Shown here piece after piece: positions 1-9,986 of a stretch of 10,031 bases of DNA. Origin of the DNA: Euryarchaeota archaeon UBA33. GTDB lineage: Archaea; Thermoplasmatota; E2; DHVEG-1. Position 1 is the stretch's first letter. The number at the start of each line of letters is the position of its first letter. The notes under the pieces are model-generated. The model did not search any database. It had not been told where the DNA came from and saw nothing but the letters and a program-made list of their open reading frames with translations. Both the position numbers and the translations under genes were made by a program. The stretch spans positions 1-10,031 of the forward strand of contig DAYE01000034.1 in NCBI GenBank assembly GCA_002506745.1, given 5' to 3'.

Positions 1-1409
1 TCAACAACCGTATAATTGTATCCTACGTCATAATCGGTAAGCCACCATTGCGTGTTGATATCGGGTTGTGGAGAGTCAATGGAGACGTTGTAGATATCAT
101 GCGAGACGTACGCTGCATCGTTGTGATCGTTTGGTGAGGGATTTGTGATGTCCGCCATAGGATCACTGAATGCAATCTTTAATTCCTCAGAATTGACTCC
201 TGCGCATGTTACGTAGTGTCCTCCTTTTCTTTCAGAATGCGGGGGAGGATTGTAGTACTCTGTTTTGAATGCCCAGTCCAGCGTAGAAAGAACGTTATCC
301 TTCCATGCTTGACCGGGAGGGTATGGATTGCCAACATCATAACTCCAATAGTAATGGGGTTGGTCATCGAGTTGACGGACGTCAAAGTAATAGGGGATGC
401 CAGGGGTGAGTGAAATAGCGGGATTGAAATCAAATCGAATCCACGTCTGAGCCCCGAGAAATCCTGGGTTTACCGTGGATTTTCCGAGGAGATTGCCCGG
501 GTGATTATCATAAACATTTACCTCCACTTCACCTGCTGGGAACGTGTTAACGCTCTGTAGGAGGATTTCTATTGCATCAAGCCTTGGAACCGTTGGAATA
601 AACCCTTGAGAATCCCAAAAGGCATTGATTTGTAATACTTTCAGAACAGGTCCTAAAAGCTGCGATTGATCAACCATCAAAGGCCCAATGATATAGTTAT
701 AATCTCCAAGTAAGAGAATAACATCTTGGCTCCGTTCAATTTCATTTTCTATAAAGGAAAAGGTTGGTCGATCATAGGTCTGCACCGTAAATTTATCGGT
801 GAGTCCAGTGGTAGTCAGCCAATCACTAATCGCAGTATTCATATCGTCGACATAGGTGGTACCTTTATCCGTGGTGTTCATCGCTCGCGCAAGGTTTTCA
901 ATAAGTAATGGGGCGTTGGTTGACACATGGTCATCACCAGCTCCAAAATCTTGGACCAAAGCAAACTGGTCCTGCCCATCACCGGGTGTTCCTGCCGGAT
1001 CTGCGAATTTTGAGTCAAACCACCAGAAACAATTCGCCAGAGCAACAGGACCGCAGAACGCCCATTCATAAACATCATCACCCACCGCTGTGCTATTCAG
1101 AGAACAATCTGAACCTGGTGCGATACAGTTTTCCGTTGGATTGTAGATATCATCTCCAGCAACCGTTGAATCAATCACGTTATTTGGTCCTGGTGCTATC
1201 TTTTTCCATTGGTCTTGTTGTTGACTAAAATCAGGGAGTCCCTGCGGCGCATAGTTTGGGTACGATGGTTTCCAGTACCATCCTCTAATCTCTGTTGATT
1301 TATCGGTTTTCGATGCAATTACGGTGTTCATTGCCTGTGCTGATGTTATTAGAAGAACAAATACTACGACGAGAGAAATAGCAGCCTTCACAATTTTGTT
1401 CTTTTTCAT
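1..1409 (-). CDS. Secreted C39-like (papain-fold) cysteine-protease-type protein with inserted beta-sandwich, 3' end outside window
   Basis: An uninterrupted frame of 469 codons runs from ATG 1409 to the window edge with no stop, so the C-terminus is missing. GGAGG at 1417-1421 lies 7 bases before the ATG and fixes the start. Residues 1-26 are a Sec signal peptide: KKNK, a hydrophobic core, then SAQA with likely cleavage after Ala26. Cys119 sits in FCGPVALANCFWW, the CGPxA nucleophile motif of C39-like peptidases. GGHYVTCAGV gives the candidate catalytic His398, and AFSDP gives a candidate Asp416. The motif HNDAAYVSHDIY follows at 429-440. Residues about 248-375 resemble an adhesin or lectin-type jelly roll (IPTVPRLDAIEILL, then ISLTPGIPYYFDV and YDVGNPYPPGQAW) and appear inserted between the Cys and His blocks. 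Likely an extracellular or surface protein; whether it is an active peptidase, and on what substrate, cannot be told. No link to phosphate uptake is visible. Confidence 0.85.
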   Translation of the reverse strand, partial: MKKNKIVKAAISLVVVFVLLITSAQAMNTVIASKTDKSTEIRGWYWKPSYPNYAPQGLPDFSQQQDQWKKIAPGPNNVIDSTVAGDDIYNPTENCIAPGSDCSLNSTAVGDDVYEWAFCGPVALANCFWWFDSKFADPAGTPGDGQDQFALVQDFGAGDDHVSTNAPLLIENLARAMNTTDKGTTYVDDMNTAISDWLTTTGLTDKFTVQTYDRPTFSFIENEIERSQDVILLLGDYNYIIGPLMVDQSQLLGPVLKVLQINAFWDSQGFIPTVPRLDAIEILLQSVNTFPAGEVEVNVYDNHPGNLLGKSTVNPGFLGAQTWIRFDFNPAISLTPGIPYYFDVRQLDDQPHYYWSYDVGNPYPPGQAWKDNVLSTLDWAFKTEYYNPPPHSERKGGHYVTCAGVNSEELKIAFSDPMADITNPSPNDHNDAAYVSHDIYNVSIDSPQPDINTQWWLTDYDVGYNYTVV

Positions 1410-1832: not shown

Positions 1833-2483
1833 TTACTTGAGCTCAATTCGGTTCCCAGAAACCATATAGTTTATCTCTTCCGCCATATCACATGCATGGT
1901 CTCCGCACCGCTCGAGATATCGGGCTACCATGATGTAATGCGTACAGATTGTGATATTCGCGGGATTTTCCATCATATAAGAAACGCATTCCCTAAAAAC
2001 GGAATATCGAAGCGAATCAACATCGTTATCCCTCTCAGTAAAATTTTTTATTAAGGAGAGATCACATGTTTTGAATGCCGTGAACGCATCATTAATCATG
2101 CTTTGAACAAGGTTATTCATATGTGGGATACTGATGATTTTTTTAATATGTGGTCCCGGTGCAATTTCTTTTGTAACATTCGCAATATCTTTTCCGTACC
2201 GACCAATACGATTCAGATCGACAATCATTTTCAGACAGCAGGCAATTGTACGCATATCAACAGCCATTGGTTGATATAATGCAATTAATTGTAATGACTC
2301 CTCCTCGAGATCTACGTTCATTTTTGCTAATTCTTTTTTCTTTGAATTGACCCATTCTGCTTTTTCTAAATCGAGATTCTTAAGAGACTCAACCGCAGTG
2401 CACAACATTGCGGTAGACAGATTCGACATCTCGATGACATTTTCTTTTAATTTTTCTAACTGTATATGAAATTTTTCCACCAT
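1833..2483 (-). CDS. phoU: Phosphate transport regulator PhoU
   Basis: This 216-residue protein has the usual PhoU length and two three-helix PhoU repeats. Repeat 1 contains ESLQLIALYQPMAVDMRTI (about 62-80) and DLNRIGRYGKDIANV (89-103). Repeat 2 contains RDNDVDSLRY (151-160) and YLERCGDHACDMAEEI (189-204). PhoU proteins are peripheral cytoplasmic regulators that bind metal clusters through E/DxxxD motifs and restrain Pst transport; in bacteria they also signal to PhoR. In repeat 1 the usual acidic residue after RIG is Arg96, so the first metal site may be altered; repeat 2 keeps GDHA. ATG 2483 is preceded by AGGTGA, which overlaps the pstB stop codon TAG (2492-2494), so translation is probably coupled. 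It is the last gene of the pst operon. No sensor kinase is present in the window. Confidence 0.95.
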   Translation of the reverse strand: MVEKFHIQLEKLKENVIEMSNLSTAMLCTAVESLKNLDLEKAEWVNSKKKELAKMNVDLEEESLQLIALYQPMAVDMRTIACCLKMIVDLNRIGRYGKDIANVTKEIAPGPHIKKIISIPHMNNLVQSMINDAFTAFKTCDLSLIKNFTERDNDVDSLRYSVFRECVSYMMENPANITICTHYIMVARYLERCGDHACDMAEEINYMVSGNRIELK

Positions 2484-2491
2484 TCTTTCAC

Positions 2492-3256
2492 CTATCCAAA
2501 TCTTCCCGTGATGTAATTTTCTGTGAGTTCTTCTTTTGGATTTTCAAATATTTGTTTCGTCTCACCAAATTCGATCAACTTCCCAAGATACATATACGCT
2601 GTATAATCGCTCACTCGCGCAGCCTGTTGCATATTATGAGTTACAATAATCACAGTGTATTTCTTTTTTAATCCTGTCATGAGATCCTCGATTTTTGCTG
2701 TCGCGATCGGATCAAGAGCTGAACAGGGTTCGTCCATGAGGATTACCTCTGGTTCTATGGAGAGGGATCGTGCGATACATAATCGTTGTTGCTGACCACC
2801 AGATAGCCCCATCGCTGATTCATGTAATCGGTCCTTTACTTCATCCCATAACGCGGCGTTCTTAAGGCTTTTTTCCACTATTTCATCAAGCTGGTTTTTA
2901 TTCGTAATTCCTTGCACCTTTGAACCATATGCAACATTTTCATAAATGGTTTTTGGAAACGGGTTCGGTTTTTGGAACACCATGCCGATTTTTTTTCGTA
3001 CCTCGACAGCATCAGCATCTGGTCTATAGATATCAGTTTCATGGAAGAAAATTTTTCCGGTGATTTTACATTTATCGATCACATCATTCATTCGGTTAAA
3101 ACACCGAATCAATGTCGATTTTCCGCAACCAGAAGGACCAATAAGTGCAGTAATTTTATTTGGGAGAATACCAAGGGTGATATCATATAATGCTTGTTTT
3201 TCACCATACCAGAGGTTCAGAGTCTCAGTTCTTATTAACTTATCTTTGCTTGTCAT
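2492..3256 (-). CDS. pstB: Phosphate ABC transporter ATP-binding protein PstB
   Basis: This 254-residue ABC ATPase has the full PstB length. It powers phosphate import through PstCA on the inner face of the membrane by ATP hydrolysis as a dimer. Motifs in order: Walker [10 protein letters not shown] (40-48); FNRMND (53-58), typical of PstB; Q-loop Gln95 in [15 protein letters not shown]; signature LSGGQQQRL (151-159); Walker B VILMDEP (171-177) followed by CSALDP; H-loop His207 in VTHNMQQA. The end, NYITGRFG, is also typical of PstB. ATG 3256 follows the pstCA stop TGA (3264-3266) by 7 bases. The RBS GGTGA contains that stop codon, so translational coupling is likely. Nothing in it departs from a working enzyme. 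Confidence 0.98.
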
Positions 3257-3263
3257 TTGGTTT

Positions 3264-5195
3264 TCACCATTTCATATTTTTTCTAAATCGATTACGCAGG
3301 AGAATTGCAATCAAATAAATTCCAATTACGAGGAGCAATAATACAAGAGCGGTTCCTGCCTGGTTTTCTTTTGACCCTGGGATTGATGTAGCAAGGGTAA
3401 ACAGATGGTAGGGTAATGCATTTACTGGTTGTAATAGAGAACTTGGAATGAAATTCGAGAATACGACCGCGGTAAATAAAATAGGCGCTGTTTCGCCGGC
3501 AGCTCTGCCTATTCCGAGGATTGCTCCTGTGAGAATTCCTGGTGCTGCCGGGGGTAGTACCACCTTTCGTATCGTCTGCCATTTAGTTGCCCCAAGCGCA
3601 TAACTTCCTTCGCGCAATGACTGTGGAACGCTCTTTAATGCTTCTTCGGTGGTTCGGATGATTGTTGGAAGGATCATAAATGCTAAGGTGATTTGTCCCG
3701 CGAGTAGAGAAAAACCAAATTTCAGGTACAAAACAAAAAACGCAAAACCAAACAGTCCAAAGACAATTGAAGGAGTTCCATTGAGCAGATCTGCACCTGC
3801 ACGGATTATTTTTGTTACTATTCCTTCTTTTGTGTATTCATGTAAAAAAATTGCTGCACCAACCCCCAAGGGCAAGGAGATAGCGATTGCACCAGCGACC
3901 AAATATAATGTTCCGATGATTGAAGGAAATATTCCCCCTGATCTACCAAGGTTGCTTGGTCCTGTGGTAAGGAACTCCCAGCTGAGTGCTCCAACTCCGT
4001 TGGTCACAATATATGCAAGAATGATGCCGAGGAAAATAATGACGATGATGATTGATAAGGAAATAATACTAAATGCGATTTTCTGTTTTATTTTTATTGA
4101 GATTTTTTTCAAAGAATAATACATCAGAGCAATTATGATGAGAATACAGATTACTGGAATTATTCCAACTGCCATGAGGAGTATTATAATAATAACTATA
4201 CCAATAAAAAGATATAATGATTGTTTTATTTTTTTCGCGAGTTCAAATGAGATGATGGGGAGTCTCTTTGATCCTGATCGTTGTTTTTCTTTTAATCTTC
4301 CTAAGATAAGTGTGGCAAGGATATTGACGATAAGAGTGATAATTAAAAGGATAAGTGCGAGCCCAAATAATGCACTGTAATGATCGCTTCCTGTGGCTAC
4401 TTCACCCATCTCTATTCCTAAGGTGGCTGTGAGGGTTTTTATTGGTGCAAACACGTTTGTTATCGGGTTAGGGATGAGCCCATAGGTTGGGTTGCCACAG
4501 ACCATCATGACTGCCATGGTTTCTCCGATAGCTCGTCCAATCCCAAGGATGATTGCGGCAGTGATTCCAGATATTGCGGAGGGCACAACGATTTTACTAA
4601 TTGTCTGCCAGCGAGTGGCACCAACAGCAAGGGATCCTTCTTTATATTCACGGGGGACAGAACTGATCGCGTCTTCTGCGACACTGGTTATAGTCGGAAT
4701 CGCCATGATACCGAGGAGAATAGATCCGGCAAGCCATGATTCTCCTGTTGGGACATCAAAAGTGATCTGTAGCCATGTGACAAGCACAATTAACCCAAAA
4801 AAACCAAACACAACCGATGGTATACCAGCCAGTAGTTCTATCGCTGGTTTTATGATTGCCTTCATTCGAGGAGTTGCGAGTTCAGCGATAAAAATCGCAC
4901 TACCAATGCTGAGTGGAATCGCGATAAGCATCGCACCAAGTGTCACCAGTAATGTATCGACTATCAGGGGAAATGCACCATAGAGTGGTGGTTGTCCTGT
5001 GGGATACCATCGCATCCCGATGAGAAAATCCACTACGCCTTCTTTTTGAAAAATCGGATATGCGTCTCGAAATAAGAAGAAGATAATGGAAAAAATAACG
5101 ATGATTGCTGAGATGGCACTGAGGAAAAAAAGTGTTTTCATCCCCTTTTCTTTCAGAAGAGAACCTTTCCACGAGAGATGAAATATTTTCACCAT
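3264..5195 (-). CDS. pstCA: Fused phosphate ABC transporter permease PstC-PstA
   Basis: One 643-residue polypeptide contains both membrane subunits that are normally separate. The PstC half (about 1-300) has its permease EAA loop at 186-205 ([12 protein letters not shown]) followed by GIGRAIGET (218-226). The PstA half (about 370-643) has [20 protein letters not shown] (529-548) followed by GIGRAAGET (561-569). Each half looks complete, with about six membrane segments. The junction (300-370) holds a basic stretch, [10 protein letters not shown], and a hydrophobic segment at about 327-360 that could form an extra membrane hairpin, keeping both halves correctly oriented. No Shine-Dalgarno stands before the internal Met341 or Met358, so a separate PstA is unlikely. 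ATG 5195 is preceded by GAGG with a 7-base gap. The gene lies 92 bases after pstS and abuts pstB. Confidence 0.96.
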
Positions 5196-5287: not shown

Positions 5288-6178
5288 TTATTTGCTTAAA
5301 TCTTTCCAGTTTGTGATATCCCCAAGATAGATTGATTTTAATTGTGCGAGTGTGAGTCCTTCGGCATAGGTGTTTTGTGGATTTACAATGATTGCGATGC
5401 CGTCTTTTCCGATGATGTACTTCACCAGGCCTTTTCCTTGTTCTGATGTCTGAAGATCACGGGATGACATCCCTATATCTGCGGTTCCTTGGCTGACTGC
5501 TGATATCCCAGCTCCAGAGCCTCCACCGGTGACTGTGATGGTTAATCCGGGGTACAGGATTTTAAAACTGGTAGCTGCTTTGTCTGCAATAGGTAGGACT
5601 GTTGTTGAACCACTGATAGTCAATGTTCCAGATAATGTCTTTCCAGATGTATTGTAATGAGCTGTGTTCTGTAATGGCACAAATCCTTCTTGTGTTACAA
5701 TCGCCTGCCCCTCTGTGCTTTGCAGATAGAGGATGAATTCTTTAGCTGGTCCTGTTGCATTTCCTTTTGTAAACATGTAGAGATCACGCGAGATTGGATA
5801 GGTGCCTGCAAGAACATTTTGGACATTTGCACTAATATTGTTTATTTTTAGGGCTTTCACCGTTGAATCCACATAACCAAGACCAACATATCCTATTGCA
5901 CCTGGTGTCTGGGCAACCGTTTGTTGTACAGCACCGTTTGAGTTTTTTTCAAGCAATGAGGCGCTAAAGTTTGCTTTGCCCATGACGTATGTCCAGAAGA
6001 ATTCTCGTGTTCCAGATGTGCTATCTCTTCCAATAAGTACTATAGCTTCTCCGGATTGTCCTTGTTGTTGTACACATCCGCTAAACCAGATGGTACTAAG
6101 CGCAAGGATCACTATGATACTGATGATCATCATTCCGGCTTTTTGTTTTTCTTTTTGTTGATATATAGTTATCACCAA
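5288..6178 (-). CDS. pstS: Phosphate-binding lipoprotein PstS, circularly permuted
   Basis: This is the extracytoplasmic phosphate receptor of the Pst importer. A hydrophobic segment (16-33) ends in the lipobox FSGC, so Cys35 is the likely lipid anchor. The domain order is unusual. Residues 44-169 match the usual C-terminal half of PstS: IVLIGRDSTSGTREF, GAIGYVGLGYV, YPISR, then EGQAIV and EGFVPL. After a linker (about 170-184), residues 185-296 match the usual N-terminal half: LTISGSTTVLPIADKAA, GGGSGAG, DIGMSSRD, DGIAIIVNP, and finally ITNWKDLSK at the stop. In ordinary PstS, ITNW immediately precedes the SGTR block, so both new ends fall in one loop. Phosphate-contact motifs (SGSTT, GGGSG, SSRD, SGTR) are all present. 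The start is TTG 6178 or GTG 6175; AAGG at 6181-6184 fits GTG better (5-base spacing). An ATG pair at codons 16-17 has no clear RBS. Confidence 0.95.
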   Translation of the reverse strand: MVITIYQQKEKQKAGMMIISIIVILALSTIWFSGCVQQQGQSGEAIVLIGRDSTSGTREFFWTYVMGKANFSASLLEKNSNGAVQQTVAQTPGAIGYVGLGYVDSTVKALKINNISANVQNVLAGTYPISRDLYMFTKGNATGPAKEFILYLQSTEGQAIVTQEGFVPLQNTAHYNTSGKTLSGTLTISGSTTVLPIADKAATSFKILYPGLTITVTGGGSGAGISAVSQGTADIGMSSRDLQTSEQGKGLVKYIIGKDGIAIIVNPQNTYAEGLTLAQLKSIYLGDITNWKDLSK

Positions 6179-6314: not shown

Positions 6315-7322
6315 TTGGAAATACGACGCGTGCAAGTAACTGGAGGGTCATCCTACAGCATTACCCTACCAAAGGAATGGATAAAGTCTGTTCATATTAA
6401 AAAAAATGATTCGTTAGGAATTCATATTCAATCAGATGGGACATTACTCATCACACCTAAAATTACCCAAGAACAACATCAGAGGATGAAAGAATTTGAC
6501 GTCAGTCGTATCTCGAAACCAACATACCTTCTTCAATTATTAATTGGTGCGTATATTGCTGGGTATAGCTCCATTAAAATTTCTTCTCCGTCTCGCATGA
6601 CAACCGCAGTCCGTAACGTCATTCGTTCCTTTACTCAGCTTGCCATCGGTCCAGAAATCATCGAAGAAACAGAGACAACGGTCATTCTAAAGGACCTACA
6701 TAACCTTACAGAAATGCCTTTTGATCGCACTATCAAACGAATGCATATCATCGTCAAAGGGATGCACGAGGACGTAATGCGGATACTAAAAACGAAGGAT
6801 CAAGATCTTATTGAAGATATAATCTCACGAGATAACGACGTCGATCGACTTCACTGGTTGGTTGCCCGACAATATAATATTCTCTTACAAAACACCAGCC
6901 TTGCAGAAAAAATGAATATCACGATAGGAATAGCATCAACGTATTTTTTAATTAGCAGAATTATAGAACGAATCGGAGATCATGTCGTACGAATCGCACA
7001 AAACACACAGACGCTTATCACTAATTCACTCGATCGAAAAATCATCGAAAAAATCCTTACTGCAAGTACGCTTGCACTTGACTTATTTAATAACAGCATC
7101 AGTTCATTTTTCAAAAAGGACATCAAAGCATCCAATGAAACATTCGAAGATCTTGTCAAACTCGAAAAACTCTGCGAAGAGATCAACACCCTTGCACTCC
7201 AACAAAAAGGAATCGTTGCAATATCAATAGGGTATATCATCGAAAGCATTCGAAGAACAGGAGAGTATGCTGAGGATATCTCCGAAAATGTGATTAACTA
7301 CCTTGTCGCTGAAGAACAATAA
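6315..7322 (+). CDS. AbrB/SpoVT-type DNA-binding domain fused to PhoU, phosphate uptake regulator
   Basis: This is a 335-residue archaeal PhoU-like regulator. Residues 1-47 form a swapped-hairpin AbrB/SpoVT-type domain: MEIRRVQVTGGSSYSITLPK, then EWIKSVHIKKND and GTLLITP. Two PhoU repeats follow. The first runs from about 138 to 235 and holds SRDNDVDRLHWL (171-182) and IERIGDHVVRIAQ (217-229). The second runs from about 245 to 330 and holds SIRRTGEYAEDISENV (311-326). The start is TTG 6315: an in-frame TGA (6306-6308) lies just upstream, and AGGTGA (6303-6308) is 6 bases from TTG. The AbrB domain implies DNA binding, and PhoU domains sense or bind Pst/Pit partners or metal. Its position, divergent from pstS and upstream of pit, suggests transcriptional control of phosphate uptake in both directions. 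That role is inferred. Confidence 0.93.
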   Translation: MEIRRVQVTGGSSYSITLPKEWIKSVHIKKNDSLGIHIQSDGTLLITPKITQEQHQRMKEFDVSRISKPTYLLQLLIGAYIAGYSSIKISSPSRMTTAVRNVIRSFTQLAIGPEIIEETETTVILKDLHNLTEMPFDRTIKRMHIIVKGMHEDVMRILKTKDQDLIEDIISRDNDVDRLHWLVARQYNILLQNTSLAEKMNITIGIASTYFLISRIIERIGDHVVRIAQNTQTLITNSLDRKIIEKILTASTLALDLFNNSISSFFKKDIKASNETFEDLVKLEKLCEEINTLALQQKGIVAISIGYIIESIRRTGEYAEDISENVINYLVAEEQ

Positions 7323-9485: not shown

Positions 9486-9986
9486 ATGAAGGAAATCCCA
9501 TATACACATAAAATTAGCCCAAAAATGAAAGCAATAATCGTTATTATTAGCCTTGTCCTCATTGGTGTGATTATTGGTTTTGTTGTATCAACGATTGGTC
9601 TAGGATTTATCAGAGAAGTCCTACAAACTCTTAATATTCAACCAACCGATGCACAAGAACGTCGTTTTACAACCTTATATACTGCATCAATTGTTATCAA
9701 TTGTATAGACGCAACTCTTTTGGTTGGGATATTATTTTTATATATTGATTCATATAGAAAAACAAAATCAAGTTTTTTAATGGGATTGACATTTTTTATT
9801 GGAGTATTACTCTCACGGTCAATTTTATCACTTGTAACAATCCAGTCGCTATTCACAGAGTACATCCATCTCCTACCATCTCTTGCCAACGCAATTTCTA
9901 CAACCGGAATAGGGTCGTTTAGTTTTCTTCTTAATGTTTTTGAGATTATAGCGATTAGCATCCTTTTATATCTCAGCATGGAATAG
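9486..9986 (+). CDS. Four-helix membrane protein paired with a winged-helix regulator
   Basis: I do not recognise a named family with certainty. The 166-residue protein has four hydrophobic segments: about 16-42, 68-87 (ASIVINCIDATLLVGILFLY), 97-118 (FLMGLTFFIGVLLSRSILSL) and 143-164 (FSFLLNVFEIIAISILLYLS). A soluble loop, about 45-64, lies between the first two (EVLQTLNIQPTDAQERRF). It resembles small archaeal membrane proteins encoded beside ArsR-type regulators, such as the haloarchaeal DUF7521 type, which also end in a helix with an acidic residue; that resemblance is from memory and weak. The RBS GAGGT (9474-9478) overlaps the stop of the upstream regulator gene, indicating translational coupling and a likely shared role, perhaps the membrane part of a two-gene sensing module. 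The remaining bases to the window end show no further gene. Confidence 0.75.
   Translation: MKEIPYTHKISPKMKAIIVIISLVLIGVIIGFVVSTIGLGFIREVLQTLNIQPTDAQERRFTTLYTASIVINCIDATLLVGILFLYIDSYRKTKSSFLMGLTFFIGVLLSRSILSLVTIQSLFTEYIHLLPSLANAISTTGIGSFSFLLNVFEIIAISILLYLSME

Follow-up and report, generated by a model that had tools for sequence, protein, structure and literature searches.

A naturally permuted PstS in an archaeal pst operon, with permuted and doubled relatives

The permuted gene and its operon

We analyzed 10,031 nucleotides (the window) of contig DAYE01000034.1 from Euryarchaeota archaeon UBA33. The window contains a pst operon with a gene for the phosphate-binding protein PstS (5288..6178, minus strand), which encodes 296 amino acids in one open reading frame and starts with TTG at 6178 or GTG at 6175. 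We divide canonical PstS into block A (the N-terminal half) and blocks B1 and B2 (the remainder). The window's PstS begins with a signal (residues 1-35; 6074..6178) that ends in FSGC, which by eye we take to be lipobox-like; Cys35 is invariant across an alignment of 65 permutants. According to our block models, there follow B1 (residues 43-103; 5870..6052), which runs from GEAIVLIGRDSTSGTRE to GYVGLGYV and comes after A in canonical PstS; B2 (residues 104-170; 5669..5869), which includes YPISR and EGFVPLQ and corresponds to the canonical C-terminal part; and a linker from the old C-terminus to the old N-terminus (residues 171-183; 5630..5668). Last is A (residues 184-295; 5294..5629), with SGSTTVLP, GGGSG, SSRD, and ITNWKDLS, which was also delimited by matches to the sequences of known structures. 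(All of these parts are on the minus strand.)

Several kinds of evidence show that the blocks are swapped. First, residues 4-113 of the chain in 4q8r match residues 184-294 of the window's PstS, while chain residues 117-251 match residues 43-175. The sequences of three other canonical PstS structures (4gd5, 4exl, and 1twy) give the same two-part swapped match. Second, the Pfam family PBP_like_2 (PF12849) matches in two stretches (E = 2.9e-42). (The Pfam matches are to PBP_like_2, PBP_like, SBP_bac_11, SBP_bac_1, and LysR_substrate.) Third, the protein is colinear with the sequence of a permuted crystal structure, 4H1X. The homologous blocks are cyclically shifted to B1-B2-A, and the usual order A-B1-B2 was not seen, which confirms the natural permutation proposed in the initial annotation. 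The ends are also as it described, with the stop just after ITNWKDLSK and the mature part beginning just before IVLIGRDSTSGTRE. The linker it described is present, but has 13 residues by the block models instead of about 15. A confident structure prediction suggests that the fold is kept, and this too supports the permutation.

The initial annotation had placed the cut in one loop of canonical PstS, and indeed A and B1 are separated by two residues in 122 of 137 canonical-order proteins, and the window's PstS is opened at that point. Linkers are 10-15 residues long in all 332 permutants of the window's type. By eye, linkers of separate origins (including 5630-5668 in the window) often have an aromatic residue and then an SG-rich end, which is perhaps convergent packing. 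The motifs SGST, GSxxG, SSR, and RxxSGTR, which correspond to the phosphate contacts of E. coli PstS, are invariant or nearly so among the 65 aligned permutants, so their claimed retention holds.

Could the order be an artefact of assembly or gene calling, or could the gene be decaying? The source is a draft genome (121 contigs, 73.4% complete) with a single copy of the permuted gene. However, in a search of 59 genomes of relatives, including UBA33 itself, 11 have the same order at full length, so this is not a misassembly. The order is shared with the other 10 of these genomes and with the crystal-structure sequence, and residues are conserved across the 65 permutants. We consider this explanation refuted. 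Overall, the circular permutation is supported by sequence, by the predicted structure, and by many genomes; the window's PstS is a genuine circular permutant and is probably functional.

The other genes of the operon were identified with Pfam. PstS is followed by a fused PstC-PstA permease of 643 residues (3264..5195, minus strand; two BPD_transp_1 stretches), the ATPase PstB (2492..3256, minus strand; ABC_tran), and PhoU (1833..2483, minus strand); genes for DUF47 and a PHO4 permease are farther off. A divergent gene (6315..7322, plus strand) encodes a protein that combines a MazE/AbrB-type domain with a PhoU domain and is probably a regulator. Two other open reading frames, at 3-1409 (minus strand) and 9486-9986 (plus strand), have no Pfam match at 1e-5. 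The former runs past the end of the window and appears to be exported. On another contig of the same genome, a second, distant binding protein of canonical order (L002; G000:C42:14264-14563) adjoins a permease gene.

Canonical archaeal PstS proteins from this type of operon (records L061, L056, and L013) have the ordinary A-B order. The layout is identical around the permuted PstS of four named records (L032-L035) and, where the layout of a canonical one was seen, around the PstS of another archaeon of the phylum (L061). The permutation therefore did not require the partner genes to change. We rejected the idea that permutation is tied to the PstC-PstA fusion because canonical archaeal operons also have the fusion and because bacterial permutants precede separate pstC and pstA genes (at the loci where both were seen).

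Very probably, the window's PstS is functional, serving as the lipid-anchored phosphate-binding protein of a Pst ATP-binding cassette (ABC) importer, and its circular permutation dates to the ancestor of a single archaeal clade. It would bind phosphate by the usual closure of two lobes and then pass it to PstCA-PstB. A caveat is that phosphate binding and transport by the archaeal permutant are predicted. The fold might be kept while the ligand or role has changed (to another oxyanion, or to a sensor rather than a transport receptor). We think that this is quite unlikely: the motif residues are invariant, and in four archaeal loci with 4-kb flanks (L032-L035), the gene adjoins that of the pst permease, and PstB and PhoU come next.

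Distribution and separate origins

Among the 59 genomes of the relatives search, 34 have a match, and besides the 11 full-length colinear ones, one more is cut by the end of a contig. Across 292 genomes of the window's phylum, we found the permuted gene in 12, plus the contig-cut one, all within the window's family. The B-A order is found in other archaeal genomes. Records L032-L035 have this order as well, although L032-L034 are apparently the same genomes as L003, L004, and L007.

Permuted genes are also found in bacteria. Of 241 proteins (240 listed homologs and the window's), 236 are B-A, two are A-B-A-B, two are A-B-A, and one is a B fragment. These proportions are not a census because the homolog lists, like the genomes at the centers of our surveys, were drawn with permuted queries. 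In a scan of contigs, the best 80 loci include permuted genes from records named Thermoplasmata, Clostridia, Streptococcus, Coriobacteriales or Adlercreutzia, and Treponema. Counting by match coordinates and including the chosen central genomes, the permuted gene is present in at least 9 of 249 genomes from the phylum of a Clostridium, in 8 of 199 from the phylum of a Streptococcus (7 of them shared with the Clostridium-centered survey), in 5 of 198 from the phylum of Adlercreutzia, and in 6 of 149 from the phylum of Treponema. The order of a Neglecta genome, chosen for having the gene, gave 41 of 197. In the phylum of a Methanoculleus (G062), none of 196 genomes has a single permuted gene at E of 1e-28 or better; four doubled canonical genes were found there.

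Do the archaeal and bacterial permutants share a permuted ancestor? For trees, we put the blocks in one common order and then aligned them. We left out rows whose block scores were low, along with loci flagged as duplicates, and thinned the other 373 rows to 163. A quick tree has 88 rows, and a careful tree has 85, after dropping three with long branches (one bacterial permutant and two canonical archaeal proteins). The canonical bacterial rows all come from one phylum survey (centered on Clostridium), which limits the sampling.

In the careful tree, 16 archaeal permutants form one clade (support 99/91) and 28 bacterial permutants form another (100/99). Forcing the two together costs 107.8 log-likelihood units (p = 6.08e-8, approximately unbiased (AU) test). 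(Because the quick tree had already shown the two clades, the AU testing behind these p values was not planned in advance.) In the quick tree, archaeal and bacterial rows are split with support of 100, with canonical genes beside each permuted clade. Also, the B half of the window's PstS is 64.8% identical to the nearest of the 137 canonical-order proteins and at most 43.0% identical to any of 197 bacterial permutants. Since identity points to kinship with canonical proteins in the B half only, we made separate trees for each half. Joining the permutants costs 36.4 units with the A half alone (p = 0.0058) and 90.6 units with the B half alone (p = 3.4e-5).

Two observations on the A half do not favor separate origins. 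In the A-only tree, the archaeal permutant clade has support of just 80/75. And by identity, the A half does not in itself indicate closer kinship with canonical archaeal proteins: we dropped an apparent clear gap to the bacterial permutants because in the full comparison, the best values are 54.5% (canonical) and 50.9% (bacterial permutant). This weaker identity is balanced by the tests on the separate half trees.

A single ancient permutation followed by horizontal transfer between bacteria and archaea, so that the window's PstS and 4H1X descend from one permuted ancestor, would account for the cut in the same loop, for linkers that are similar in length and by eye often have an aromatic residue with SG near the end, and for A halves that are about as alike between archaeal and bacterial permutants as between the window's and canonical archaeal proteins. 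Nevertheless, this scenario is rejected, under the model used, by the AU tests on the whole protein and on each half; canonical genes lie on either side of the split between archaeal and bacterial rows; and we consider the scenario very improbable. These sequence-based trees show that the archaeal permutants have an origin separate from the bacterial ones. Given the AU tests, the half trees, and the canonical genes beside each clade, the same loop of PstS was most likely opened at least twice.

Doubled genes and a second cut site

The initial annotation had suggested that the permutation arose by duplication, fusion, and trimming. Under this model, the canonical pstS of an archaeal ancestor would have undergone an in-frame doubling in which the second copy had no signal peptide. 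Loss of the leading A half and the trailing B half would have followed, and the spacer ahead of the second copy would have become the linker. Indirect support comes from genes that are still doubled. We found eight distinct A-B-A-B sequences, which are in-frame doubles of canonical order (L036, L165, L173, L174, L175, P0025, P0036, and P0252). One is a protein of 566 residues from Methanocorpusculum petauri (L036:3461-5158; this gene is also present as L119, L122, L127, and L172). In these canonical doubles, the copies are joined by 8-17 residues. Three other doubles (L159, L160, and L164) have the order B2-A-B1, described below. Across all doubles the copies are 75.8 to 99.2% identical, and in the canonical-order doubles 76-98%.

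Two proteins (P0227 and P0236) are A-B-A: they are near the Clostridia type and consist of a permuted PstS with an extra A in front. By eye, each has an N-terminal signal. These proteins fit leftover intermediates, and may be that. Several points speak against this part of the model. In trees with 52 and 50 rows, the second A groups with the bacterial permutants, inside their clade, while the first A lies outside it, weakly placed among or near canonical rows, so the A-B-A proteins may instead be later fusions. Each is known from one contig; the form was not found among 197 genomes of the order of G066, in matches at E of 1e-45 or better; and neither a doubled nor an A-B-A gene was found within the window's own clade.

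A second type of permutation, B2-linker-A-B1, is found in another family of the window's phylum (f25; L166, L168, L169, L170, and L171). These proteins stop soon after an IGYVxxG-like end, so the cut is between B1 and B2. When proteins from a third homolog search are included, this order is seen in 68 of 360 (within P0241-P0359), including entries named Methanomethylophilus alvi. In one of these (P0323), residues 112-295 match residues 32-209 of 4gd5 and residues 38-98 match residues 215-276; the latter match is weak (i-E = 0.0048). Linkers are 10-19 residues in 73 proteins of this type. The order rests on sequence, as the single-sequence structure prediction had a pLDDT (predicted local distance difference test) of 34.9 and was not used.

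We built a quick tree of 110 hand-picked rows and a careful tree of 48 rows. In the latter, the B2-A-B1 proteins, including the doubles, are interleaved with canonical genes and need three changes. A single clade was rejected (p = 0.00203, AU test), which is indicative because the quick tree prompted the test. All three changes could be gains, or some could be returns to the ordinary order. One B2-A-B1 protein labelled Gammaproteobacteria (P0244) is sister to L166, on short branches inside the archaeal group; the label is probably a binning error.

Known permutants, anchoring, and meaning

The initial annotation knew of no described permuted PstS. This holds within the open-licence PubMed Central papers that we searched, but 4H1X (Streptococcus pneumoniae PstS2, titled SP_2084) was already in the PDB. 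It has the same permuted topology as the window's PstS, which is therefore not the first in the databases, although the tree gives it an independent origin and bacterial loci in which both were seen have separate PstC and PstA. The title of the 4H1X entry does not mention permutation, and no word beginning with "permut" occurs in a paper on the pneumococcal Pst systems (PMC4913102). Seemingly, the topology was present in the PDB yet undescribed. That paper reports that unencapsulated pneumococci lacking both Pst systems take up about 50% less phosphate at 1 mM, whereas losing either system alone causes no drop (PMC4913102). These data indicate that a bacterial permuted form functions in the cell. 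Two caveats are that 4H1X is taken as the Pst2 receptor from its name only and that, in the same text, Pst1 rather than Pst2 has the main role at low phosphate.

Another naturally permuted ABC solute-binding lipoprotein is TpMglB-2 (Tp0684; "Type Ic / Cluster Bc") from Treponema pallidum (PMC4990184). According to that paper, it is a Cluster B sugar-binding protein, rearranged within its N lobe, and similarity in the moved part is poor (the authors give 13%). In PstS, by contrast, both parts are clearly homologous, and there are several origins and doubled genes. The TpMglB-2 authors propose that membrane tethering might explain the permutation (PMC4990184).

In PstS, we found a lipobox-like cysteine before the first block in 309 of 332 permutants of the window's type, in 68 of 137 canonical-order proteins, and in 1 of 73 B2-A-B1 proteins, many of which, by eye, start with a hydrophobic segment instead. 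The termini of ordinary PstS are in lobe I. The window's cut, in the loop after ITNWK, would lie in the lobe without these termini and would leave the cleft and motifs in place. Domain II of E. coli PstS spans about residues 76-245, and residue 293 of the window's protein aligns with residue 113 of 1ixh, which would put this cut in lobe II. (A weakness of this placement is that it uses approximate domain limits and the 1ixh alignment, not coordinates.) By the usual topology, the B1/B2 cut is presumably in lobe II as well. With the cuts in lobe II and the usual termini in lobe I, the anchor in either type would sit on the opposite lobe. Selection for such a shift is a guess.

Most known natural circular permutations are isolated cases with no surviving intermediates. 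The novelty here lies in the separate origins, in a second cut site, and in doubled forms that still exist: a single housekeeping receptor has been permuted several times independently, at two sites, and has doubled genes of the kind predicted by the standard model. We give somewhat less than even odds to a bolder reading, in which PstS is a recurrent circular-permutation system: in-frame doubling and re-trimming would have happened repeatedly, yielding two or more independent B1-B2-A lineages and a B2-A-B1 form whose three additional changes may include reversions to the ordinary order. For annotation, family profiles call permutants ordinary PstS, which hides their order. Because canonical genes occur in the same operon setting, they can be compared directly with permuted ones. 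It is now testable why both cuts share one lobe, how an anchor on the other lobe affects docking, and whether permutation is reversible.
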